Source: Candidatus Thalassarchaeaceae archaeon
GTDB lineage: Archaea > Thermoplasmatota > Poseidoniia > Poseidoniales > Thalassarchaeaceae
NCBI GenBank assembly: GCA_029940695.1
Contig: JAPYUP010000015.1
Location: 1 to 37,588, forward strand
DNA: 37,588 nucleotides
Direction of reading: 5' to 3'
In this document: positions 17,374 through 35,770 of the stretch, piece by piece
Layout of the letters: each line of letters begins with the position of its first letter
Numbering within the stretch: the stretch's first letter is position 1
Notes under the pieces: model-generated
Databases searched by the model: none
The model's input: only the letters and a program-made list of their open reading frames with translations
What the model was told of the DNA's origin: nothing
Translations under genes and position numbers: made by a program

Positions 17374-17655
17374 ATGGTGAAGATGCCAAGAAAGATCATG
17401 CGCTACAGCCCCGCCGCTGGCAAGCATACGGAACACACTGTGGAGCGTGTCAAAAAGAGACCTGCAAGTGAACTCAAGTGGGGACAGAGGAGGTTTCGCC
17501 GTGTTACCGCTGGGTACCGTGGCTTCCCCCGGCCGAAGCCATCCGGCGAGAAGCCGACTAAGCGAGTCAATTTGATATTCCGATGCACCGAGACTGGCAA
17601 GGCCCATTCCCCCAAGGGGAAGCGAGCTAGGAAGTTCGAACTCGTCGACAAATGA
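17374..17655 (+). CDS. rpl44e: Ribosomal protein L44e (eL42) with degenerate zinc site
   Basis: This 93-residue large-subunit protein contacts the tRNA E site. The family core is unmistakable: KHTEHTVERVKK (17-28), SELKWGQRRFRR (32-43), GFPRPKP (50-56) and PTKRVNLIFRC with the C-terminal ARKFEL. Family members usually have two CxxC pairs forming a zinc ribbon. Here the first pair is replaced (Y11-S12-P13-A14-A15) and the second keeps only Cys71, with Thr at 74, so zinc binding is probably lost. The ATG at 17374 gives MVKMPRK, matching the family start. S27e follows after 10 bases, and the gene heads a translation operon. Confidence 0.93.
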   Translation: MVKMPRKIMRYSPAAGKHTEHTVERVKKRPASELKWGQRRFRRVTAGYRGFPRPKPSGEKPTKRVNLIFRCTETGKAHSPKGKRARKFELVDK

Positions 17656-17665
17656 TAGGGGTGAG

Positions 17666-17839
17666 ATGTTGGGTGGGCGTTTCCTGAAAGTCAGCTGCCG
17701 TGACTGCGGCAACGAATGCACAATCTTTGACCGGGCCTCCACGACTATCTCATGCTCCATTTGTGGCTCGACACTGGCCGAGCCATCCAGCGGTATGGCG
17801 GACCTCACGGGCTGTACCGTCCTAGAGGTCCTGAACTGA
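17666..17839 (+). CDS. rps27e: Ribosomal protein S27e (eS27)
   Basis: This 57-residue small-subunit protein, short enough to be missed by length cut-offs, was translated by hand from the ATG at 17666. It starts MLGGRFLKVSCRDCGNE and continues with FDRASTTISCSICGSTLAEP. Cysteines 11, 14, 30 and 33 form the intact C4 zinc ribbon of the family. The FxxAST segment and the SGGxA-like turn (SSGMAD) are also characteristic. It lies 10 bases after L44e and 13 bases before eIF2-alpha, as in the conserved archaeal cluster. Confidence 0.93.
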   Translation: MLGGRFLKVSCRDCGNECTIFDRASTTISCSICGSTLAEPSSGMADLTGCTVLEVLN

Positions 17840-17852
17840 GCGAGGCGGCATC

Positions 17853-18641
17853 TTGGCAGCGGCAACGGACAACTGGCCCGATGAGGGCGAGTTACTCGTC
17901 TGCACGGTCAAGAATGTCCGCGAGAACGGCGCCTACCTGAGCCTTGACACCTACCCGGGCAAGGAGGGTTTCGTCTTCATTGGCGAAATCGCCGCCGGCT
18001 GGGTCAGGAACATCCGGACCCATGTAAGGGAGGGGCAGAGGGTTGTTGCCAAGGTCACTGGGGTCAGGGTCGAGCGGAAGAGTGTCAGCCTGTCGATAAA
18101 GGCCGTTAACGAAGAGCGGCGCAGAGCCACGCTCCAATCTTGGAAGAACGAGCAGAGAGCCACTCAGATTATGCGAGTCGCTGCTGACCGAGTTGGCTGG
18201 GACCACGAGAAGACTGTAACGGTGTCCGATGAGATGAAGGATGCCTTCGGAACTCTGTATGGCGCGCTCGAGGAGTGCGCAATAAGCGAGAACGCCCTCG
18301 CGGACTCCGGCTTCGAAGGATCGTGGATGGGCGTCGTTACCGAGCTGGCCATAGAGAACATTGTCCCTCCATTCGTGGAAATCAGAGGCAAGTTCGACAT
18401 TGAGGTGTGGGGGCCAGAGGGCGTCAATGCAATCAAGGAGGCCCTCATATCTACCGAAGCATGCGCCGATGGGCTGGAGGAAGTAATCCTGACCTGCCAT
18501 TACGACGGAGCGCCTCACTATAGAGTGGACATTCGCGCTCCTGACTACCCCTCGGCCGAGTCGGTGTGGGAAGCGGCGCAGAAGGCTGCTACTGAGAGTA
18601 TCGGATCCGTCGAGGGCTCGATAGCCATCGAACGCCTATGA
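17853..18641 (+). CDS. eif2a: Translation initiation factor 2 subunit alpha (aIF2-alpha)
   Basis: This 262-residue protein is the alpha subunit of the factor that delivers initiator tRNA to the small ribosomal subunit. An N-terminal S1 domain (about 11-85) has ELLVCTVKNVRENGAYLSL and GFVFIGEIA, followed by the family motif GWVRNIRTHVREGQRVVAKV. A central helical domain and a C-terminal alpha-beta domain (IRGKFDIEVWGPEG, then YRVDIRAPDY) complete the normal length. The only possible start is TTG at 17853, because a stop in frame lies at 17832-17834 and no ATG occurs near the N-terminus; GAGGCGG lies about 6 bases before it. It sits between S27e and Nop10. Confidence 0.95.
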   Translation: MAAATDNWPDEGELLVCTVKNVRENGAYLSLDTYPGKEGFVFIGEIAAGWVRNIRTHVREGQRVVAKVTGVRVERKSVSLSIKAVNEERRRATLQSWKNEQRATQIMRVAADRVGWDHEKTVTVSDEMKDAFGTLYGALEECAISENALADSGFEGSWMGVVTELAIENIVPPFVEIRGKFDIEVWGPEGVNAIKEALISTEACADGLEEVILTCHYDGAPHYRVDIRAPDYPSAESVWEAAQKAATESIGSVEGSIAIERL

Positions 18642-18668
18642 GTGCTCCCGACTAGGGACGATACTTCA

Positions 18669-18689
18669 TGAACCCCATCGAGGGGATCA
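18669..18689 (+). other. Inverted repeat between eIF2-alpha and Nop10
   Basis: The sequence is TGA-A-CCCC, loop ATCGA, GGGG-A-TCA. It gives a 7-pair stem with one A-A mismatch and a 5-base loop, 15 bases before the Nop10 ATG. It could be a weak attenuator, a processing site or chance. Confidence 0.35.
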
Positions 18690-18704
18690 TCCATCAGACT
18701 AATC

Positions 18705-18917
18705 ATGGCAAGGACGAAGCTTCAACGTTGCAAGGAGTGCAAGGCTTTCGGCTTGGGGCCGGAGTGCGCCGAATGCGGGGGTGTGATGGTCGCCGTAGCC
18801 CCGCTGAAGTACTCCCCTGAGGACCCACAGGGAGCTAGGCGCAGGAAGAGAGTCGATGCGGGAAGCGACGAGTGGGTCGAGTCCCTACCGACGTCGAGGA
18901 AAGAGGAAAGCGAATGA
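18705..18917 (+). CDS. nop10: H/ACA ribonucleoprotein subunit Nop10
   Basis: This 70-residue protein is part of the H/ACA guide-RNA complex that makes pseudouridine in rRNA, with Cbf5, Gar1 and L7Ae. The N-terminal zinc ribbon has cysteines 9, 12, 21 and 24 (CKECKAFGLGPECAECGG). It is followed by the conserved PLKYSPEDPQGARRRK segment that packs on Cbf5. A short acidic tail ends in EESE. The ATG at 18705 gives the normal start. The stop overlaps the PAC2 start as ATGA, so the two proteins are translationally coupled. Confidence 0.93.
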   Translation: MARTKLQRCKECKAFGLGPECAECGGVMVAVAPLKYSPEDPQGARRRKRVDAGSDEWVESLPTSRKEESE

Positions 18918-19678
18918 ATAGATCGCAGTTGCATTGGCTCGGAGAGCAGGGCCTCCCCAAGCACTGCACCATCATCGAGGCTGTACCGGGAGTGGGGAAC
19001 GTCGGGAAGTTGGTCATCGATGGGCTGCTGGACAAGCATCCATCTAGGACATTGGGATGGCTCCTACATCCCGACTTCCCGCCCCATGCAACCCTAGATG
19101 ACGAGGGGCTGATTAGACCGCCGCGTCTCGAACTGAGTTCAGTCCTTCTTCCCGACGGGAGCACAGTGGTCACTGTCAGCGGGATGATGCAACCCTTGAC
19201 CGCTGCAGGCCAGTTCGAGGTCTCCGAATCGATACTTCAGTTGGCCGCGGACTCCGATTCACCACAGTTCCTGATATTAGCAGGTCTGGCCTCTGGGCTG
19301 GATGATCGTGCCATCCACGTGATTTGCTCCGATGCCAAGGTTCGTAGCAACCTCGAGTCGGAGGACATCACGGTTAGCAGGGGCCAGCCAGAAGGAGGCA
19401 TGATCGGCATCGCCGGTATGATCCTCTCACTTGCTCCAACTCGCGGAGTACCAGCGGTTGGAATCGTCGCAGACACCGTCGGCACCAGTGCAGACGTGCT
19501 CGCAGCCGACAGGCTTGCCAAGTGGATTGAGGAGGCTTTCGGCATTCCCCTGGACTTGGACCTGGATACTACCGAGCGAACGGCGGTACATCTCTTGGAG
19601 GCCATCGATCCGACAGGAACCATAGAAGATTACCTTCGAGGCGATGAGCCAGAGGTCTCGACTGACTTCTACGTTTGA
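18914..19678 (+). CDS. PAC2-family proteasome assembly chaperone (PbaA/PbaB type)
   Basis: This 254-residue protein belongs to the PAC2 family that helps assemble the archaeal 20S proteasome. The family features seen are the N-terminal EAVPGVGNVGKLVIDGLL, ILAGLASGLDD in the centre, and GGMIGIAGMILSLAPTRGVPAVGIVADT. An AADRLAKWIEEAFGIPLDL helix follows. The protein ends in Phe-Tyr-Val, matching the HbYX docking signature used by proteasome-binding factors. The ATG at 18914 overlaps the Nop10 stop; upstream in-frame codons would fall inside Nop10. A hairpin follows the gene. Confidence 0.87.
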   Translation: MNRSQLHWLGEQGLPKHCTIIEAVPGVGNVGKLVIDGLLDKHPSRTLGWLLHPDFPPHATLDDEGLIRPPRLELSSVLLPDGSTVVTVSGMMQPLTAAGQFEVSESILQLAADSDSPQFLILAGLASGLDDRAIHVICSDAKVRSNLESEDITVSRGQPEGGMIGIAGMILSLAPTRGVPAVGIVADTVGTSADVLAADRLAKWIEEAFGIPLDLDLDTTERTAVHLLEAIDPTGTIEDYLRGDEPEVSTDFYV

Positions 19679-19748: not shown

Positions 19749-21527
19749 CTAAACGACCAAGACTTCCTCAGCGAACTCTGGCATCTGCATGCCCGATTCG
19801 CTGAAAGCCTCCTGAACGGTACCGAAGGGCCCGTTGGAACTCCTCGCGGCCTTTGCCCTAGAACTCACGATTCTCCAGGATGATTTGCTGCCGATGCCAG
19901 GTATTGCCTCCAGTTGCTTCTGTGTGGCGCTGTTGACGTCCAGTCCGACCTCGACTCCGGTGATGCTACGCATCCCGTGGTCGGTCACAAGGATGTCCGA
20001 CCCCGTCTCGAGGGGGATCCTGTAAGGAACGCCGACAAGAATTGGATAGGCCCCAATCTGCCGCCCAAACGTGATTCCCGAGCTCCCGTGGATGTTCGGG
20101 TCCCTGTGTTCGGGGTCAATGACCTGCTCAGGCCTCCTTATTCGGTCGTTGTGAGCTTCCCACCAGACATCACGCAGTATGGTTCCAACAGGGAGCATCT
20201 CCTCGAGCAGGGGGCGGTCGACGGTCTCTCGGACCTGCCTCTTGAAGTCCTTGAAAGCACGTTCGGAGATGTCTTGGAATCCCTGTCCCTCGACCTGTCT
20301 TATGTTGATTCGTCGTAGCCAGAGGCCCTCATCCTTGAGGCTCCGGAGAAGATCCATATTCATCGCATATGTCGATTCGGTCTCGCCATTCAGTCCGGCG
20401 ATGAAGTTGAGGCCGGGCAGGAGCCGTGGCAGTCCCCTCTCACCCCTTCCCCTGCCGTACTCGTTGATGAGGCGGATGGCCGTGCGAAGCTGGCTGGGGT
20501 CGCAGTTTAGCCAGTTCTGCTCATGCACTTCAGGGTCTGCGGACTCGAGCCCGAACGAGAGCACCGCGCCGTCTGAGAGCGTCTCCACCAACGTCTTGGT
20601 AATCGCTGTGGCCGGCTCTAGGTTCTCAGCAACAATCGAGGGGTTGGCGTTGTCGACGTGGAGCACCTCGAGGCGCTCGTCCTCACGCAGGCCGTGCAGG
20701 ACCCTAGCGATGGGTTCTGGGTTCGGGATGGGGTATTCGAGGTCCTCGACTCCCTCGGCCCTGTAGGTGTAGATATCAGTGGCACCGCCGATGCGAACGT
20801 TTCGAACCCCCGAATTCAATGCGGATTCGACCTCGGCGATTACTTCATGTTCGGACCTCCACAGAGGCAGGCCCTTCTTCGGCTCAATGCAGAACCTGCA
20901 TCCGCGCTTGAAGCGGACGCAACCCTGGTAGAGCTCGACCTCGTAGGTGAGGGGGCCAGATGAGCCATTGGGCGCAATCAGGTCAGGGTGTTCCGTGACC
21001 GCATAGGAGCGGGCTCCTGCCAAGGCCCAGGCGCTCCATTGCTCTGCAGTGCGCCTCCTATGGTCCCACTTGCCGGTCGATATGAAGTGGTCGAGGGCAG
21101 CATCGGTATCCTGCACCGTGCAGAATAGGTTCTGCCTAAGCGGTATCCAACCGTCGTACCTCCAGTGCCGAATCGCCCAGCCACCACACAGCACGGGGCG
21201 ACTCTGGGGGAGGACTGAGAGCACCTCGTCGAGTTCTCTTCTGCTAATCGGCGTGCCTCGAACATACTTCCCCGGCACTACCGCCCCGGCTAGGATAACG
21301 GCCCCCTCTATGCCTACAAGCTCACTTCCGAGCCCCTCTCGCGCTTGCTGGTTGGCGAGCTTGCCCTTGTGCTGGAGCCTCCACTGGTCGATTGTCATGT
21401 ATGTGTAGGGCTTACCCCTAGCTTCGAGGACCCCGCAGATGTAGCGGATGTGGAATCCTAGGTAATTGGGCACCCCGAAGGCAGCCGGCTCGTCCTCATA
21501 GCCGTCGATTACCAGCCATCCTTCCAT
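19749..21527 (-). CDS. Radical SAM protein with C-terminal helix-hairpin-helix (COG1031-like)
   Basis: This 592-residue protein contains a radical SAM core whose cluster cysteines are spaced CX6CX2C (Cys203, Cys210, Cys213 in GCVRFKRGCRFC) rather than the usual CX3CX2C. Conserved strands follow: NVRIGGATDIYTY, LEVLHVDNANPSIV and LSFGLESADPEVHEQN. PGLNFIAGLNGET comes after these. An N-terminal domain of about 190 residues resembles the B12-binding-type or accessory domain of related enzymes. Near residues 535-560 a helix-hairpin-helix (LEAIPGIGSKSSWRIV) suggests nucleic-acid binding. The architecture corresponds to the archaeal family I remember as COG1031; its substrate is unknown, possibly RNA. 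It lies downstream of the Csl4-RRM gene on the same strand with about 50 bases between. Confidence 0.82.
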   Translation of the reverse strand: MEGWLVIDGYEDEPAAFGVPNYLGFHIRYICGVLEARGKPYTYMTIDQWRLQHKGKLANQQAREGLGSELVGIEGAVILAGAVVPGKYVRGTPISRRELDEVLSVLPQSRPVLCGGWAIRHWRYDGWIPLRQNLFCTVQDTDAALDHFISTGKWDHRRRTAEQWSAWALAGARSYAVTEHPDLIAPNGSSGPLTYEVELYQGCVRFKRGCRFCIEPKKGLPLWRSEHEVIAEVESALNSGVRNVRIGGATDIYTYRAEGVEDLEYPIPNPEPIARVLHGLREDERLEVLHVDNANPSIVAENLEPATAITKTLVETLSDGAVLSFGLESADPEVHEQNWLNCDPSQLRTAIRLINEYGRGRGERGLPRLLPGLNFIAGLNGETESTYAMNMDLLRSLKDEGLWLRRINIRQVEGQGFQDISERAFKDFKRQVRETVDRPLLEEMLPVGTILRDVWWEAHNDRIRRPEQVIDPEHRDPNIHGSSGITFGRQIGAYPILVGVPYRIPLETGSDILVTDHGMRSITGVEVGLDVNSATQKQLEAIPGIGSKSSWRIVSSRAKAARSSNGPFGTVQEAFSESGMQMPEFAEEVLVV

Positions 21528-21574: not shown

Positions 21575-22867
21575 TCAGCGGTGCTGCCTGCGTCTGCCGC
21601 CGCCGCCCCTGCGTCCGCCGCCTCTGCTGCCGCCAGATGTCGACTCTTCGACTGAGATTCTCCGACCCTTGAACTCGGTGCCCTTCAGCGCCTTGATGGC
21701 AGCTTCCCCCGACTTCTTGCTAGCGAAGGTGACGAAGGCGAAGCCTCTGGGTCTGCCCGTCTCCCTGTCCATGGCCATGTGGACCTCCTTCAGCTCGCCG
21801 TGAGGAGAGAACAACTTCCTCAGCTCGTCCTCTGTGGCTTCGTACGAGACGCCCCCAATGAACAGCTTGGTCCCCATCGTCTCCCCTGCCTTGGATCTGG
21901 CTTCCTTCATCACCCCGCGTTCTCTCGCGAGGTCATCCTTGCTGGCCTTGCCAGCCTCAACCTTCTCCATGCAGTCCCTGCATCGCAGCGGCTTTCCAGG
22001 AGTTGGCTTGAAGGGGACCTTGGTTGCGGTGCCACAAAGAGTGCAGTCTGCTGCGTGCATCTCCCTCTGAGGCCTGCCACCGCCACCGCCACCGCCACGT
22101 CCTCGTGACGAGGGGGATCTGCGTGCGGAAGCGGGAATCTCATGCGACCAGCCACGCCTGTGGTCTGCGACTGGGGAGAGGTAGGGTCTAGCCCCATCGT
22201 GCCCCAGAGTCGATTCGGCCTCCTCGGTCCATCGCTGGCCGGGGCGGTTGAGAGGCTGGAGGTCCGAGCCCTCGGGAATCACGAAGCCGTGCCCGAAGCC
22301 GTTCGAGAGGACCCGGAAGGCCCTGTAGTCGCACCGGGGGCACGCGACGTTGAAGTCGGGGGTCGCATCACTGGTCACGAGTTCCGCTCCGCAGGAAGGG
22401 CAGCATGCGTACAGTACCCCTAGGTCGGGATTCCCCTTAGTCGAGGCCTTCAGCATTGGCTCCGTCTTGATGATCTTAGCGCGAACGATGTCTCGCTTCC
22501 TCATTGCATCCCCGGCTGAGGGAATGAAGCGATCGACCAGTTCGGAGACGAAGATGTCCGCATAGAGCTTCAGCGCGGGTACGTCCCTGTGGCCGCCGGT
22601 CCTGCCCTCGATATGGAGTACCCTAATCTCAGCGGTCTTCTCGTTCAGTCGATTGACCTCCCCTATCAGAACGTCTCCCATCTCGGGGATATTCAGGGGG
22701 GGTCTTGACGAGTCCACGGAGATTACTCCGCCGCTGCTAACGAGCGTGCCGGCGACCACTGCGACCGCCCCGCCATCAGAGACGTGGAGGCCCTTGCCTA
22801 GCTGCCCATCGCCCGGAATCCCCACGAGAGTTCCAGGCGTCACGAAGTCTCCCTCAGAGGCACTCAT
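21575..22867 (-). CDS. csl4: Exosome Csl4-like protein fused to a zinc ribbon and an RRM with RGG tail
   Basis: This 430-residue protein has several RNA-binding modules in one frame. Residues 1-60 form the Csl4 N-terminal domain (FVTPGTLVGIPG; GTLVSSGGVISV). An S1-like domain is at about 61-140 (GDVLIGEVNRLNEKTAEIRV). A Csl4 zinc ribbon has cysteines 156, 159, 176 and 179. A linker rich in Arg/Gly (250-268) leads to a second C4 site with cysteines 275, 278, 296 and 299 (VPFKPTPGKPLRCRDC). An RRM follows at about 333-409 with RNP2 LFIGGV (335-340) and RNP1 RGFAFVTF (374-381). It ends in an RGG-type tail. Archaeal Csl4 normally stops after the first zinc ribbon (about 180-190 residues). The ATG at 22867 precedes the conserved start; GTG 22918 is possible. 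It would cap the RNA-degrading exosome and add RNA-binding capacity. Confidence 0.85.
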   Translation of the reverse strand: MSASEGDFVTPGTLVGIPGDGQLGKGLHVSDGGAVAVVAGTLVSSGGVISVDSSRPPLNIPEMGDVLIGEVNRLNEKTAEIRVLHIEGRTGGHRDVPALKLYADIFVSELVDRFIPSAGDAMRKRDIVRAKIIKTEPMLKASTKGNPDLGVLYACCPSCGAELVTSDATPDFNVACPRCDYRAFRVLSNGFGHGFVIPEGSDLQPLNRPGQRWTEEAESTLGHDGARPYLSPVADHRRGWSHEIPASARRSPSSRGRGGGGGGGRPQREMHAADCTLCGTATKVPFKPTPGKPLRCRDCMEKVEAGKASKDDLARERGVMKEARSKAGETMGTKLFIGGVSYEATEDELRKLFSPHGELKEVHMAMDRETGRPRGFAFVTFASKKSGEAAIKALKGTEFKGRRISVEESTSGGSRGGGRRGGGGRRRQHR

Positions 22868-22923: not shown

Positions 22924-23517
22924 TCAGGGAGGAGTGAGGCGCCAGAACGCCGCGCGCGTTCGACCTCGCTCTCGGGAGTGGTGCGCGTAAGCCGCGGGCA
23001 GCGCTAAGTCGGCTTCGCCGTAACGCTCGACGCCCCAGCCTGCAGCCTCGAAGATTGATTGGATGTGGCCCGCCCCAGCGTTATGCATTATGTGCGCTGT
23101 CACTCCCGCTGAGAGGATTGCCTCGAGGAACGGCCGGTCGGCCCTCTCGAGCTGCTTGCCCCACGGCGGGTTCGTAATCACGAGGTCTGCGGAGGATTTG
23201 GCGAGAGTATCTTCATCAACCTCGGCTTGAACTATCTCTACTCGGTCCTCCAAGCCCAAGTCAGCTGCGTTGTTGGCACAAGCAGCGCATGCCTCCTCGT
23301 CGACCTCGATCAGAGTGGCTGATGATGCCCCCATCAGCAAGGCTCCAAGACCTAAGACGCCGTTTCCTGTTCCCAAATCCACCACAGAGCAACCCTCGAT
23401 TAGATCGCCGAAGGCGGCAATGTCACTCAGCCAACGGGCTGCCAAATCACCTTCCGTTGAGTATTGCTCCAACTCGACGCTGTTGCACGGATGAGGGTGA
23501 AGTTTGGAGAGCCTCAT
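22924..23517 (-). CDS. METTL5-like RNA methyltransferase (COG2263 type)
   Basis: This SAM-dependent methylase has about 197 residues. The N-terminal LEQYSTEGDLAARWL segment matches the METTL5-type family, in which LEQY(P/S)T is characteristic. Motif I is VVDLGTGNGVLGLGALLMGA, an acidic residue ends strand 2 (LIEVDEEA), and the catalytic motif IV is NPPWG. METTL5 relatives methylate N6 of an adenine in small-subunit rRNA; they usually have NPPFG, so Trp replaces Phe here. The ATG at 23517 fits the family; an in-frame ATG at 23538 would add seven residues. It is upstream of the Csl4 fusion on the same strand, which supports an RNA-related role. Confidence 0.82.
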   Translation of the reverse strand: MRLSKLHPHPCNSVELEQYSTEGDLAARWLSDIAAFGDLIEGCSVVDLGTGNGVLGLGALLMGASSATLIEVDEEACAACANNAADLGLEDRVEIVQAEVDEDTLAKSSADLVITNPPWGKQLERADRPFLEAILSAGVTAHIMHNAGAGHIQSIFEAAGWGVERYGEADLALPAAYAHHSRERGRTRAAFWRLTPP

Positions 23518-23572
23518 GGCCAGGGTGCGCAGGCGCATGGGGCACGCATGGCTGTTAGGTGATTGAACTACT

Positions 23573-30958: not shown

Positions 30959-33900
30959 ATGACTTTGGCTCTCTTGAGAGCCATGCGTGACAGGACATCG
31001 CCGTTCACGCCACTCCTAGCCACATGCATGATCATCGTCCTCGACCTCTCGGTGGGGGCCGTCGCGAGCATCGAACCCGAGGGAGGGTTTGATGACGTGC
31101 TCTCAGAGCTCCACGCTGACGAGCTCCATACCCTGATGTGCGGCCTTGACCCATGCTCCCTCAAAGACAGGTCTCCGACCCACTCTCCACCCGATGCGGG
31201 ACCCCCGGTCCAAGAGTTCGGCTGGTGGCAAGTATTCTGGTCAGACGCGGATTCCAACGGCATGGACGACAGGCTCCAATCAGTTCTCGTTGGACAAAGG
31301 GAGTCAGTCTCCAAGACTGCCATCACAGGGGATGACGGGCGCCTTACTGTCGCAATCATCGTCCACTACGCCTGGCACCCCGGTCCCACAGACATCGCTG
31401 CACTCATCGATGCCATATCAGCACACGGCTGGGAAAGCGAAGGGTCCTGGTTTATGCCCATGGGTCACCTTGACGCCATCGTCCTCGACCACGTCCCTGT
31501 CAGCGCTCTGATCGACGTGTGGGGGCTCGATGGGGTCATTCTGGTGGAGGAACAGAACGTCATCGTGCCATACCTAGACAAGGCGACCCGGGGCTCCAAG
31601 GTGAGGACCTCTGGACTCTACGATGAGACTCTCAGAGGTCTAGGCTACACGGGTTCTGGCATCGTTATCGCTGTGGTGGACACCGGCGTTGACAACGAGC
31701 ACTTCTCTCTTGACGACTTCTCGGACAACAACCACGACAACACGAAGGATCCGGACGAACTGTCCGACCCGAAATGGGTAGCTGGGTGTGATGCGACCGG
31801 AATCGGGCAGTCTGGATGCAACCCGGAGGACCCAGACGACGGTGACGGACATGGCACTCACGTAGGCGGGATAGCCCTCGGCACTGGAGACTGGACACGC
31901 ACCAACCAAGGCTACGCGCCGGGCTCCTACCTCGTCGACGTCAAGGTCATGGAGGACTACGGAGGTGGGAACTCGCAATCCATCCTAGCCGGGCTACAGT
32001 GGATTATCAACAATCACGAGACGGACTGGGGTAACAACGAGTCGAGCAGAGGCATAGAAGTCGTGTCCATGTCCTTCGGCCGCCAGAGCTCCCCGGGAAG
32101 CGACAACTCTGACGATGGTTCGAGCGCCGAAGCCCAACTCGTCAACCAGGCCTCGGAAGCGGGACTGGTCTGCGTGGCAGCCATCGGAAACGACGGGGAG
32201 AACTACGTCAATTCCGTTGGCGCAGCCGACACCGCCATTACTGTGGGTTGGCTGGATGACAAGAATTCCGTCGACAGAAGCGACGATACAATATCGAGTA
32301 GTTCAAACTACGGTCCGAGGGAGGATGACGGGGACGGAGACTCCTACGACGAGTTGAAGCCGTGGGTCGTCGCACCCGGCTCGAATATCAACTCGGCGAA
32401 GCACGGTGAGTCGAGCAGTATCCTCCCCGGATCCGATAATAACAGGGCATCGGATGACTACGTGCAGAAATCGGGATCCAGCATGTCGACTCCAGCGGTT
32501 TCGGGCATGGTCGCAGTCATGTTGGAGATTGGCGAGGTTCAGAGGCTCGACTTCTTCGAAGACGGGAAGGGGGTCTGGCGTAGCGAGGCCATCAGAGACT
32601 ACCTCATGAGGTACTCGGAATCGAGAGGGGGGACTACGGAGGAACACGAGGGGGAGAGCTGGAACGACCGTTATGGCTTCGGCATCATCGATGGTGGAAT
32701 GATCGCTAGCGGAATGCTGGGGGCGGAGCAGAACGATAGTGGCGGGGGGCCGGTGCCTCCTTTGGCAGGGCACTGGGTCGAGATTGAGAATCCTACAGAT
32801 CAGTCTTGGGTGGTGCAGGGCCAGACGTACAACATCCGTGGCCACATCAACGAGCATGGTGAGGACAATGGCTCAATCGAGGAGGTCCTAGTCAAGATTG
32901 AGTACTCGTTCAGACCCGGCCCCAGTGACCCCATATCCGTAACCACCTTGGTAGATTGGGACAATCCAATCGGAATAACAAACTGGACGGTTCCCCTTAG
33001 CGTACCCTACTTCCCCGAAGACTACACTGATCTCTCTATTATTGCCAAGGTCTCCGCCCGAAACGATATCGGCCGCTGGAGCAACCTGACCGATTTCGAG
33101 TACCGGATTGGCATCGTCAACATGACCTTGAATTCTCCAAGCGGTCAGGATAGCCTGAGCGGCGTCGTCAGTGTATCGGGTCAATTGGAGTCGATCGATA
33201 GTGCGACCATCCAATGGAGGCTGGGGACCGAGGATTGGGAGGACGCCGCGACTTACTCGGGGAATAGGGAATTCGAAAGCGAATGGTCGTTCAACTGGGA
33301 CACTACGAGCGTCAAGGATGGCGAGTACAGGCTGTCTGTGAGACTCGATAGTGGGGTAGGAGTCGTTACCGAGGAAATTCGAAGGTCCGTCACGATAGAC
33401 AACGTCCCCCCTACGCCGGACCTCGTGTTCGTGAGCAAGTCAATCTCTGTTCAGGAATTTGGGATTCCCATGTCCGAGGCTTTCATGAACACCTTCCTCG
33501 AAGTGAGGGCGACAGTTAGGAACACCGGGGACATGGCGGCCAACGAAGTCGGCATAATTCTTGAAGAAGACGGATCCAGAAAGGACGAGTATGTCGTACC
33601 TAACATAGACAGTGGCGACTTCATCGACGTAGTTCTGTACTGGAATCCCTCGTCATCGGGTGAGCCCTCAATCACCATCATCATCGACCCGTTGAACACC
33701 ATCGAAGAACTCGATGACTCGAACAACAGGCTCTCTGCGTCGTTTCCAGTTCTTCCCCGACCCGAAGGTGTCGACTTAGCTATCAGAGAGGGGGCAATTG
33801 TCACGACTCCGGTCGTGCCACGCCCGTTCGAGCAGATTTTGGTCGAAGCTCGTGTCGACAACCTGGGGGCTAGTGACGCCGTCGGAGTTGGGGGATCCTT

Positions 33901-35770
33901 GGAGATTTTGACGGGAAGAGGCTGGGAGCAAGTCAGCACTGCGAGCGCTGCATTCGTTCTTGGTGGGTCGTATGCCCTTCTCCAATTCCTCTACACCCCC
34001 AACCAAACTGGCCCTCAGGATCTACGGATCAATGTGATATTAGATGGGGCAACGGATCTAGACTGGACCAACAACGTCCACCAAAAGACGATACTTGTCG
34101 ATAGGACGACTCTGACAGGACCGAGGGAGGCCGAATTCAATGTAGGTGAAACTCCAATCGAGATCATCAACCTAGATGATGAGGAAGGCGGCCTAGTCAT
34201 CACCGAGAAAGAAAGGATGCTATACTTGTACAAGCTGACGCCGAACAAGGCTCTGGTAGCATGCAGTAACATCATGGAGGATCGCTGGTCAGGTGACATC
34301 GTAGTTAGGAGCACTGAGGATGGTATAGCCCACATCCTGTGGACCAGACGGTACCTCGACTCGAATGGCTTCCTGATGCAGACCCTGAGCTACTCCACCA
34401 TCGACTCCACATGCAGGATGACTCCCATCCAAGACCTGCTGAAGGGCATCCCCCTCTCTGATGGCAAGTACTGGGGTATAGACATGGATGTAAGCGATTC
34501 TGAAATCATCGTGGCTGGCTACCACAGGGACCTCTTCACAGGTGGCACCATGGGTGACATCACGAACATCTTCCTCCTCCACGCTGACGCGCCTACCTCA
34601 TCCTCCGACTGGGATCTGAGCCCCAGCATCATTGCCGGCATCGACATTCCGCAATCGGCCTCCGATCCACTTGCCATTGAGTTCGGTCACGAGCGCGCGC
34701 ATCTCCTATACCAGACTACCAGAAACGACACGACTGGCAAGGAGAGGCTAGGGTTGTGGTACGCACACGGCCTCATCGAGCAGTCACCATGGTCATACAA
34801 GAAGGCAGTAGGTGACGAAGCATCCCTTCCTCACATGACGGTGATAGTCGAGGACAAAGAGGAGAGGATAGTGGCACTCTGGAGGGAGGGCGAGGGCCAA
34901 GATTCCGAACTGCTGGCAATAGTTGCCGACTCAACCTTCGAGTCTCAGGATGACCTGAGGGCACGACTCCCTGCGAGGGGCCTGGGTGGCATCGGCATTG
35001 TAGGAACGACGCGTGGAATCCAGGTTCTCTATGATCATGTGGGTCCCTTTGGACCTCAGGTCGAATACGGCATTATCGATCATGAGGATGGCTGGATCGG
35101 ACTGTCAAACAGGATTCTGTCAGGTCAGATCGATGTGATTGACAGATCTCCAGAGAGGGGCGAGACCGTCATGCTACTATCGTCCTCAAGCGGATGGCAG
35201 ATTCGGTCCCTCGTCGACGACGGCGGCGGATCCAAGAAGGGGCAGACGATAATAGAGCAAGTCAGGTCATCCCTCGGACTGGATGAGGATAGCTTCGAGA
35301 TTCTTGTAATTGGTGTCGCATTCGCTGTACTGATTCTTGGTGCTGTCGCCTTGGTATCACTATCTGCCCAAGGTCTCAGGTGGCTTGGAAGGAGACGGGC
35401 AATCGAGGACGACGGTGCCGTATTGATGGAGGACGACGTGGTCGATCTGATAGATGACTCTGACCTTTCCATAAGCTCCGAGGATGTTGAACTTGTTCGG
35501 CCCCCAGAACCTGGACAAGATTCCATAGGGGCTGAGGGGCGCAGGGCTCGACGGGAGCGCAGGAGCGAATCGGAGCCGATTTCTGATGCCCCTGCTCTGG
35601 AGGACGTAGGCACAAAGCCGCTCCCAGAACTACCGGCCAAGATGCGGGGTCCTTCCTCGGCATTAGTGAGCCGCCCCGCCGTGTGCAGCAACTGTGGGGG
35701 TCGATTCGTGGCCAGTACCAAACTTAGTTCGACCAGATGCCCGATTTGCGAAGAAAGAGTTCCCCTCTGA
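30959..35770 (+). CDS. Giant membrane-anchored subtilisin-like protease with C-terminal zinc ribbon
   Basis: This 1603-residue protein starts with a signal peptide (16-37, FTPLLATCMIIVLDL). A pro-domain (about 40-205) contains a DADSNGMDD calcium-type turn. The S8 catalytic domain has Asp241 (VVDTGVDNEH), His298 (DGHGTHVGG), Asn411 (AIGND) and Ser508 (SGSSMSTP). After about residue 610 come repeated Ig-like/CARDB-like beta domains, recognisable by LEVRATVRNTGDMAANEVG and ILVEARVDNLGASDAVG. A long beta-rich region (about 1060-1420) follows. A single membrane helix (about 1443-1467) leads to a cytosolic tail. That tail ends in a zinc ribbon with two CxxC pairs (CSNCGGRF, CPICEE). It would degrade proteins outside the cell. 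No frameshift is seen along the whole length. Confidence 0.9.
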   Translation: MTLALLRAMRDRTSPFTPLLATCMIIVLDLSVGAVASIEPEGGFDDVLSELHADELHTLMCGLDPCSLKDRSPTHSPPDAGPPVQEFGWWQVFWSDADSNGMDDRLQSVLVGQRESVSKTAITGDDGRLTVAIIVHYAWHPGPTDIAALIDAISAHGWESEGSWFMPMGHLDAIVLDHVPVSALIDVWGLDGVILVEEQNVIVPYLDKATRGSKVRTSGLYDETLRGLGYTGSGIVIAVVDTGVDNEHFSLDDFSDNNHDNTKDPDELSDPKWVAGCDATGIGQSGCNPEDPDDGDGHGTHVGGIALGTGDWTRTNQGYAPGSYLVDVKVMEDYGGGNSQSILAGLQWIINNHETDWGNNESSRGIEVVSMSFGRQSSPGSDNSDDGSSAEAQLVNQASEAGLVCVAAIGNDGENYVNSVGAADTAITVGWLDDKNSVDRSDDTISSSSNYGPREDDGDGDSYDELKPWVVAPGSNINSAKHGESSSILPGSDNNRASDDYVQKSGSSMSTPAVSGMVAVMLEIGEVQRLDFFEDGKGVWRSEAIRDYLMRYSESRGGTTEEHEGESWNDRYGFGIIDGGMIASGMLGAEQNDSGGGPVPPLAGHWVEIENPTDQSWVVQGQTYNIRGHINEHGEDNGSIEEVLVKIEYSFRPGPSDPISVTTLVDWDNPIGITNWTVPLSVPYFPEDYTDLSIIAKVSARNDIGRWSNLTDFEYRIGIVNMTLNSPSGQDSLSGVVSVSGQLESIDSATIQWRLGTEDWEDAATYSGNREFESEWSFNWDTTSVKDGEYRLSVRLDSGVGVVTEEIRRSVTIDNVPPTPDLVFVSKSISVQEFGIPMSEAFMNTFLEVRATVRNTGDMAANEVGIILEEDGSRKDEYVVPNIDSGDFIDVVLYWNPSSSGEPSITIIIDPLNTIEELDDSNNRLSASFPVLPRPEGVDLAIREGAIVTTPVVPRPFEQILVEARVDNLGASDAVGVGGSLEILTGRGWEQVSTASAAFVLGGSYALLQFLYTPNQTGPQDLRINVILDGATDLDWTNNVHQKTILVDRTTLTGPREAEFNVGETPIEIINLDDEEGGLVITEKERMLYLYKLTPNKALVACSNIMEDRWSGDIVVRSTEDGIAHILWTRRYLDSNGFLMQTLSYSTIDSTCRMTPIQDLLKGIPLSDGKYWGIDMDVSDSEIIVAGYHRDLFTGGTMGDITNIFLLHADAPTSSSDWDLSPSIIAGIDIPQSASDPLAIEFGHERAHLLYQTTRNDTTGKERLGLWYAHGLIEQSPWSYKKAVGDEASLPHMTVIVEDKEERIVALWREGEGQDSELLAIVADSTFESQDDLRARLPARGLGGIGIVGTTRGIQVLYDHVGPFGPQVEYGIIDHEDGWIGLSNRILSGQIDVIDRSPERGETVMLLSSSSGWQIRSLVDDGGGSKKGQTIIEQVRSSLGLDEDSFEILVIGVAFAVLILGAVALVSLSAQGLRWLGRRRAIEDDGAVLMEDDVVDLIDDSDLSISSEDVELVRPPEPGQDSIGAEGRRARRERRSESEPISDAPALEDVGTKPLPELPAKMRGPSSALVSRPAVCSNCGGRFVASTKLSSTRCPICEERVPL

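Follow-up and report, generated by a model that had tools for sequence, protein, structure and literature searches.

Archaeal Csl4, as represented by the A. fulgidus protein (PDB 2BA1), combines an N-terminal domain, an S1-like domain and a C4 zinc ribbon in a chain of 179 residues. According to parts of PMC4227792, Csl4 of S. solfataricus is anchored in the exosome mainly via its N-terminal domain, DnaG requires Csl4 to join the complex, and the C-terminal domain of DnaG is important for this binding. The same source links the archaeal exosome's selection of substrates to a preference of Rrp4 and DnaG for poly(A). When the N-terminal RNA-binding domain of DnaG was placed on the C-terminus of S. 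solfataricus Csl4, the engineered protein (Csl4-NT) gave poly(A) binding, and exosomes containing it degraded poly(A) faster than Csl4 exosomes with or without DnaG (PMC4227792, in part). In eukaryotes, RNA-binding modules serve the exosome through cofactors such as Nrd1/Nab3, NEXT (ZCCHC8, RBM7) and TRAMP (Air1/2); Nrd1 and Nab3 are described as RRM proteins, and Air1/2 and ZCCHC8 as zinc-knuckle proteins, in parts of PMC3838930.

The window, the whole 37,588-nucleotide stretch of DNA analyzed here, encodes a natural fusion built on a similar plan. A single minus-strand frame (21575..22867) runs from an ATG at 22867 to a stop codon at 21577-21575 and encodes 430 residues plus stop, with no internal stops over the 430 codons. 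The original prediction of one uninterrupted frame holding Csl4, a second C4 site and an RRM was borne out by this open frame and by profile matches to each part. For comparison, genomes were drawn from the window's own family (f1; 11 genera), its sister family in the order (f2) and the next lineage out (f3), and this arrangement of two families with a third lineage beside the order in the class agrees with parts of PMC6461757. The order is apparently Poseidoniales, a group of the ocean surface. One alignment (A1) held 26 f1 and 9 f2 sequences and another (A2) held 33 selected f1 sequences, and more loci were fetched; three f2 rows were left out, two cut by contig ends (L038 and L042) and one with unread bases (L043).

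Residues 1 to 191 (22295..22867, minus strand, as are all parts of the gene) form the Csl4 core of N-terminal domain, S1-like domain and C4 zinc ribbon (Cys 156, 159, 176, and 179). The Csl4 equivalog model NF034126 covers residues 7 to 191 at 95.3 bits, over its curated cut-off of 90, and 2BA1 aligns to residues 8 to 194 in a PDB sequence search (E 5e-13). The Pfam S1 model had no match on the fusion protein and the EXOSC1 model stayed under its cut-off (16.2 vs 21.2); the S1 region was assigned on the basis of NF034126, the 2BA1 sequence match, and the predicted fold. Foldseek also ranked 2ba1_A first (E 2e-14; TM on target, 0.62; rmsd 8.7, reflecting shifted domains), which together with the ribbon cysteines supports the fold of N-terminal domain, S1, and C4 ribbon. 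Compared with 2BA1, the best Csl4 match by both sequence and fold, the fusion protein adds about 240 residues of linker, zinc finger, RRM, and tail, breaking the habit, descriptive rather than required, that a Csl4 chain ends after its C4 ribbon.

The second zinc site (residues 267 to 305; 21953..22069) is a CxxC-x17-CxxC treble-clef finger, with Cys 275, 278, 296, and 299 at the spacing that the class requires and profile matches over cut-off to PF23477 (residues 268 to 302; 46 bits, cut-off 27) and TIGR04272 (46, cut-off 36). A connecting helix (residues 306 to 331; 21875..21952; helical at 310 to 330 in the predicted model) leads to the RRM (residues 332 to 409; 21641..21874), where RRM_1 (PF00076) matches residues 335 to 404 at 76.6 bits (cut-off 20.7). 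This domain has RNP2 (LFIGGV), RNP1 (RGFAFVTF), three RNP aromatics, and an RRM fold that superposes on the best solved RRMs at an rmsd of 0.8 to 0.9 angstrom (Foldseek), confirming that it is canonical with both motifs intact. The aromatics (F336, F376, and F378), like all eight zinc-site cysteines, do not vary among the 33 selected f1 sequences. In the family search, it was the sole RRM detected in the window's genome. Its description as eukaryote-like holds as far as the best PDB matches are eukaryotic, with poly(A)-binding protein, hnRNP A1, and many others returned by a sequence search with the RRM half, but the label does not extend to its origin, as archaea of the same phylum also have small stand-alone RRMs.

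The last 21 residues (410 to 430; 21578..21640) make a basic Gly/Arg tail, which had been proposed to be an RGG module. The basic character is kept, as the tails of all 33 f1 sequences are short and 31 to 62% Arg plus Lys, but the RGG element is not conserved: the window's tail has two, 14 of 33 f1 tails contain RGG, and 19 lack it, so the conserved repeat that marks an RGG box was not found. In the predicted model of the whole protein (mean pLDDT, 70; pTM, 0.40), Csl4, finger, and RRM were modeled at moderate confidence, while pLDDT fell below 50 at residues 192 to 211, 224 to 266, and 410 to 430, and the placement of the domains relative to one another was left unpredicted by a pTM of this size.

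Expressing divergence from six f1 relatives as pN/pS, with pS near saturation in distant pairs, allowed constraint to be compared along the protein. Values were 0.15 to 0.34 in the Csl4 core, 0.18 to 0.33 in its ribbon, 0.11 to 0.35 in the linker, 0.05 to 0.22 in the finger, 0.12 to 0.43 in the connecting helix, and 0.07 to 0.30 in the RRM. They were looser in the tail (0.09 to 1.01) and in a variable Gly/Arg/Ser-rich spacer just ahead of the finger (residues 251 to 266; 22070..22117; 0.17 to 0.80), which also varies in the f1 alignment. Purifying selection therefore acts over most of the joint between the fused parts.

The linker that follows the Csl4 ribbon (residues 192 to 250; 22118..22294) was missing from the original prediction. 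It has the core pattern LN..G.RW..AE......AD.R, and all 35 aligned sequences share R212, W213, D235, and R237. About 50 residues after the ribbon are common to f1 and f2, with a profile match of E 3.4e-9 over 39 columns that none of 200 column shuffles equaled. A search with the single linker sequence matched 12 of 180 genomes, all f1, and missed even f2, so absence of the linker elsewhere is unproven. Conservation of this segment is about that of the folded domains, yet it is largely unfolded in the prediction. This combination marks the linker, present in both families, as a candidate motif for docking a partner.

Searching the order with the fusion protein matched 264 of 292 genomes and showed that the fusion recurs. 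In f1, 132 of 148 genomes matched, and 117 of the 148 encoded the whole fusion in one open frame; 16 had no match, 2 had a weak match, 10 had a partial match, and 3 had a stop inside the matched span. The f1 total counts as f2, by sort order, eight unmatched genomes that were absent from the listing. Genomes without the whole fusion were mostly incomplete MAGs, yet one estimated at 93% complete (G013) had a weak match alone. The zinc finger was found in 12 of 12 f1 genomes tested, always within the fusion gene, and in none of 15 f2 and f3 genomes, and of the 35 f1 genomes in which the family search detected RRMs, 34 had exactly one. One genome labeled f2 (G234) also holds an f1-like fusion (query residues 2 to 430, E 1.7e-141), possibly through contamination.

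The sister family has its own version, in which Csl4 and linker are followed by two RRMs and a tail, with no second finger, in place of the Csl4-linker-finger-RRM-tail layout of f1. Two RRM matches lie after Csl4 in the same frame in 11 of the 12 f2 genomes examined closely (11 genera). In the twelfth (G220), a single RRM follows Csl4 where a contig begins; G066 additionally has a third, separate RRM. Across the family search, 45 of 47 f2 genomes had exactly two. A predicted f2 model resembles Csl4 plus tandem RRMs of the kind found in Sex-lethal, HuD, and hnRNP A1. Some f2 C-termini (L033, L034, L036, and L174) carry a conserved SRExxAxxEE-type motif that is predicted, at low confidence, to be a helix, and one f2 protein (L044, from G066) has other residues at two of the four cysteine positions in its Csl4 ribbon.

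An RRM tree of 45 selected rows clustered the f1 RRM with the first RRM of f2 (support, 100/98) and set the f1/f2 group apart from stand-alone RRMs (99/97). Second RRMs of f2 did not form one clade, and one of them (L033) fell in the group of f1 and first f2 RRMs. With 79 columns, too few for the purpose, the tree leaves RRM origin undecided. The RRM grouping, the common linker, and mostly the same gene neighbors together indicate that the fusion is probably older than the f1/f2 split. The best reading of these sequences would be a single fusion before the families separated, followed by gain or loss of the second RRM and of the finger.

Elsewhere in the phylum sample, where read, Csl4 and RRM domains were found apart. 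RRMs were detected in 97 of 245 sampled genomes, comprising 35 f1, 47 f2, 6 f3, and 9 others (families counted by hand). Among the matches listed, RRM frames in f3 and the nine others were 81 to 136 residues, too short to include Csl4, and small extra RRM frames were present in two f2 genomes (G066 and G029). These stand-alone proteins belong to the same RRM superfamily as the fused domain but are separate small genes on a distinct tree branch. Nine of 10 f3 genomes had an RRM and 8 of 10 had Csl4; in the seven with both, the two were on different contigs, and the Csl4 frames were 185 to 235 residues. Separate halves in close relatives had been named as evidence that would count against the fusion; this arrangement was seen in f3 alone, where the RRM comes from the other branch of the tree. 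Five of the nine other genomes (G308, G315, G325, G329, and G336) matched Csl4 only very weakly (best E 1.8e-8 to 4e-4), and Csl4 may therefore be absent from them altogether.

A Csl4 match was present in 217 of 218 phylum genomes, over cut-off in 185, and some of the weak matches are probably other S1 proteins. Long Csl4 frames were considered as possible further fusions and rejected as such: among the matches listed outside f1 and f2, 25 were at least 230 residues, and the 16 of these that were read included no Csl4-RRM fusion. For 12 of the 16, the extra length came mainly from a reading frame that continues upstream past the start of the gene; in G322, among these 12, a plain tail of about 40 residues contributes as well. 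The other four (G305, G310, G313, and G349; loci L143, L148, L176, and L177) had Arg/Gly-rich C-terminal tails; like the fusion, they extend Csl4 at its C-terminus, but an RRM and a second finger were absent from the sequence read. RNA-binding-type extensions of Csl4 have thus probably arisen more than once. The statement that Csl4 normally ends after its first ribbon describes what is usual in the phylum sample where it was read, but RG-rich and short plain tails occur too. Within that sample, where read, a Csl4-RRM fusion was seen in this order alone. An RRM on archaeal Csl4 was unmentioned in the titles and abstract openings of the open-licence PMC papers searched, and parts of PMC7414124 describe Csl4 as absent in Undinarchaeota and Cluster 2 DPANN, which concerns absence rather than fusion.

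The genome retains the other exosome genes. Genes for alpha-proteasome, SBDS, Rrp4, Rrp41, and Rrp42 lie in a row, followed by what appears by eye to be an L37Ae-like ribosomal protein (L134). SBDS and the proteasome subunit pass NCBIfam cut-offs. The exosome models are the best for their genes but fall under the NCBI curated cut-offs (Rrp4, 141.7 vs 200; Rrp41, 298.9 vs 318.7; Rrp42, 225.9 vs 280), indicating a divergent exosome. DnaG is over cut-off, with profile positions 1 to 277 of 419 matched; sequence for its C-terminal domain is present and unrecognized by the profile, making DnaG docking unsure here. The idea that the fusion compensates for a lost cap subunit was unsupported, as Rrp4 and DnaG genes are both present. 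A bacterial-type RNase PH is also encoded (L129, 1108-1968, G000:C44; TIGR01966, 235.1 bits, cut-off 141.5) beside the RNase PH-fold subunits of the exosome.

The flanking genes were identified much as first described. Upstream on the same strand, a METTL5-like methyltransferase (22924..23538, minus strand) matches archaeal 1wy7 (E 1.3e-21), METTL5 itself (6h2u, E 2.8e-17), and 1ne2. Downstream is a radical SAM protein with a helix-hairpin-helix end (19749..21527, minus strand; PF04055 and PF12836), completing a three-gene strand that is mostly conserved. The methyltransferase and Csl4 genes are adjacent and co-oriented in 10 of 10 f1 neighborhoods, 7 of 9 in f2, and the one f3 neighborhood read; the radical SAM gene is downstream in 9 of 10 f1 and 7 of 9 f2 neighborhoods and was not found in the single f3 neighborhood read. 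The two fusions thus mostly occupy the same place.

Together, these data suggest that the gene likely encodes an archaeal exosome Csl4 cap subunit with a built-in RNA-capturing arm, a reading consistent with its intact RNP residues, with the exosome genes kept in the genome, and with the engineered precedent. Its Csl4 core would sit on the Rrp41/Rrp42 ring in the usual way, leaving a flexible linker, second zinc finger, RRM, and basic tail hanging from the Csl4 C-terminus. Judging from its residues, the arm would bind single-stranded RNA, raise the local RNA concentration at the channel entrance, and bias the choice of RNAs for degradation or tailing, while the conserved, poorly folding linker would dock a partner. 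Exosome incorporation, RNA binding with a preference, and substrate recruitment are each plausible. The layout differs between f1 and f2, which counts against an RNA-capturing arm.

A more tentative extension is that the arm could be the order's own exosome adaptor built into the cap. With a trimeric cap, each particle would have as many as three flexible arms. The arm could trace to a single acquisition at the root of the order, with later remodeling that gave one family a second RRM and the other a treble-clef finger, and the linker might dock DnaG, a helicase, or another partner. The adaptor would then be an independent counterpart, in cis, of the eukaryotic RRM and zinc cofactors. RBM7, for example, has an RRM. 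The eukaryotic cofactors are separate proteins, whereas the modules here lie within a cap subunit, and the finger here is of another type.

Other roles for the arm were judged less probable. It could serve mainly in tailing or processing, for example of rRNA 3' ends, rather than decay, or anchor the exosome to ribosomes or transcripts together with DnaG. This is rather unlikely, although synthesis of A-rich tails is another activity of the archaeal exosome, with DnaG assisting in the tailing of rRNA (PMC4227792, in part), DnaG and SBDS genes are kept, and the upstream neighbor resembles human METTL5, an rRNA methyltransferase by its PDB entry name. Nowhere does the sequence separate decay from tailing, and neighbors are weak evidence because the methyltransferase-Csl4 pair is also present in f3, where Csl4 is unfused. 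Less probable again is a protein working largely off the exosome, as a cold-shock-like RNA chaperone made of RRM and basic tail for which Csl4 is a historical anchor. Stand-alone RRM genes occur in f3 and scattered through the phylum, while in f1 and f2, G066 and G029 excepted, the RRMs among the matches listed sit within the frame of the fusion. The fusion could thus have taken over a role of a stand-alone protein; that the window's genome has a single detected RRM fits as well. However, the Csl4 core is itself under purifying selection, the other exosome genes are kept, and the f1/f2 RRMs group apart from the stand-alone ones.

That the fusion is an assembly or sequencing artifact joining two genes is very unlikely because it recurs, whole in most f1 genomes and in its own version in f2. 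Some f1 genomes do interrupt it, three with the stops noted above and one (G088) with its two parts in different frames, but the G088 break lies within a stretch of ambiguous bases, and coding-type selection continues across the joint. A sequencing error at the joint is thereby argued against. An internal start giving a separate RRM was also rejected, as the methionine just before the RRM is not common to relatives.

It appears that an entire order has built a canonical RRM into its exosome cap, following the plan of an artificial fusion that works. Csl4-NT is man-made, uses a DnaG domain, and has a measured poly(A) preference, whereas the fusion here is natural and RRM-based. It suggests that RNA catching, left to separate helper proteins in other organisms, can be built in, and it offers a direct test of recruitment in cis versus in trans. 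It also provides a marker trait for a group described in parts of PMC6461757 as lacking cultured representatives. Elsewhere in the window, a translation-related run on the plus strand (17374-19678) faces the fusion and includes a 93-residue ribosomal-like ORF, eIF2-alpha, Nop10, and a PAC2-family gene, and a 1,603-residue ORF (30959-35770) appears by eye to encode a secreted subtilisin-type protease with a C-terminal C4 motif.
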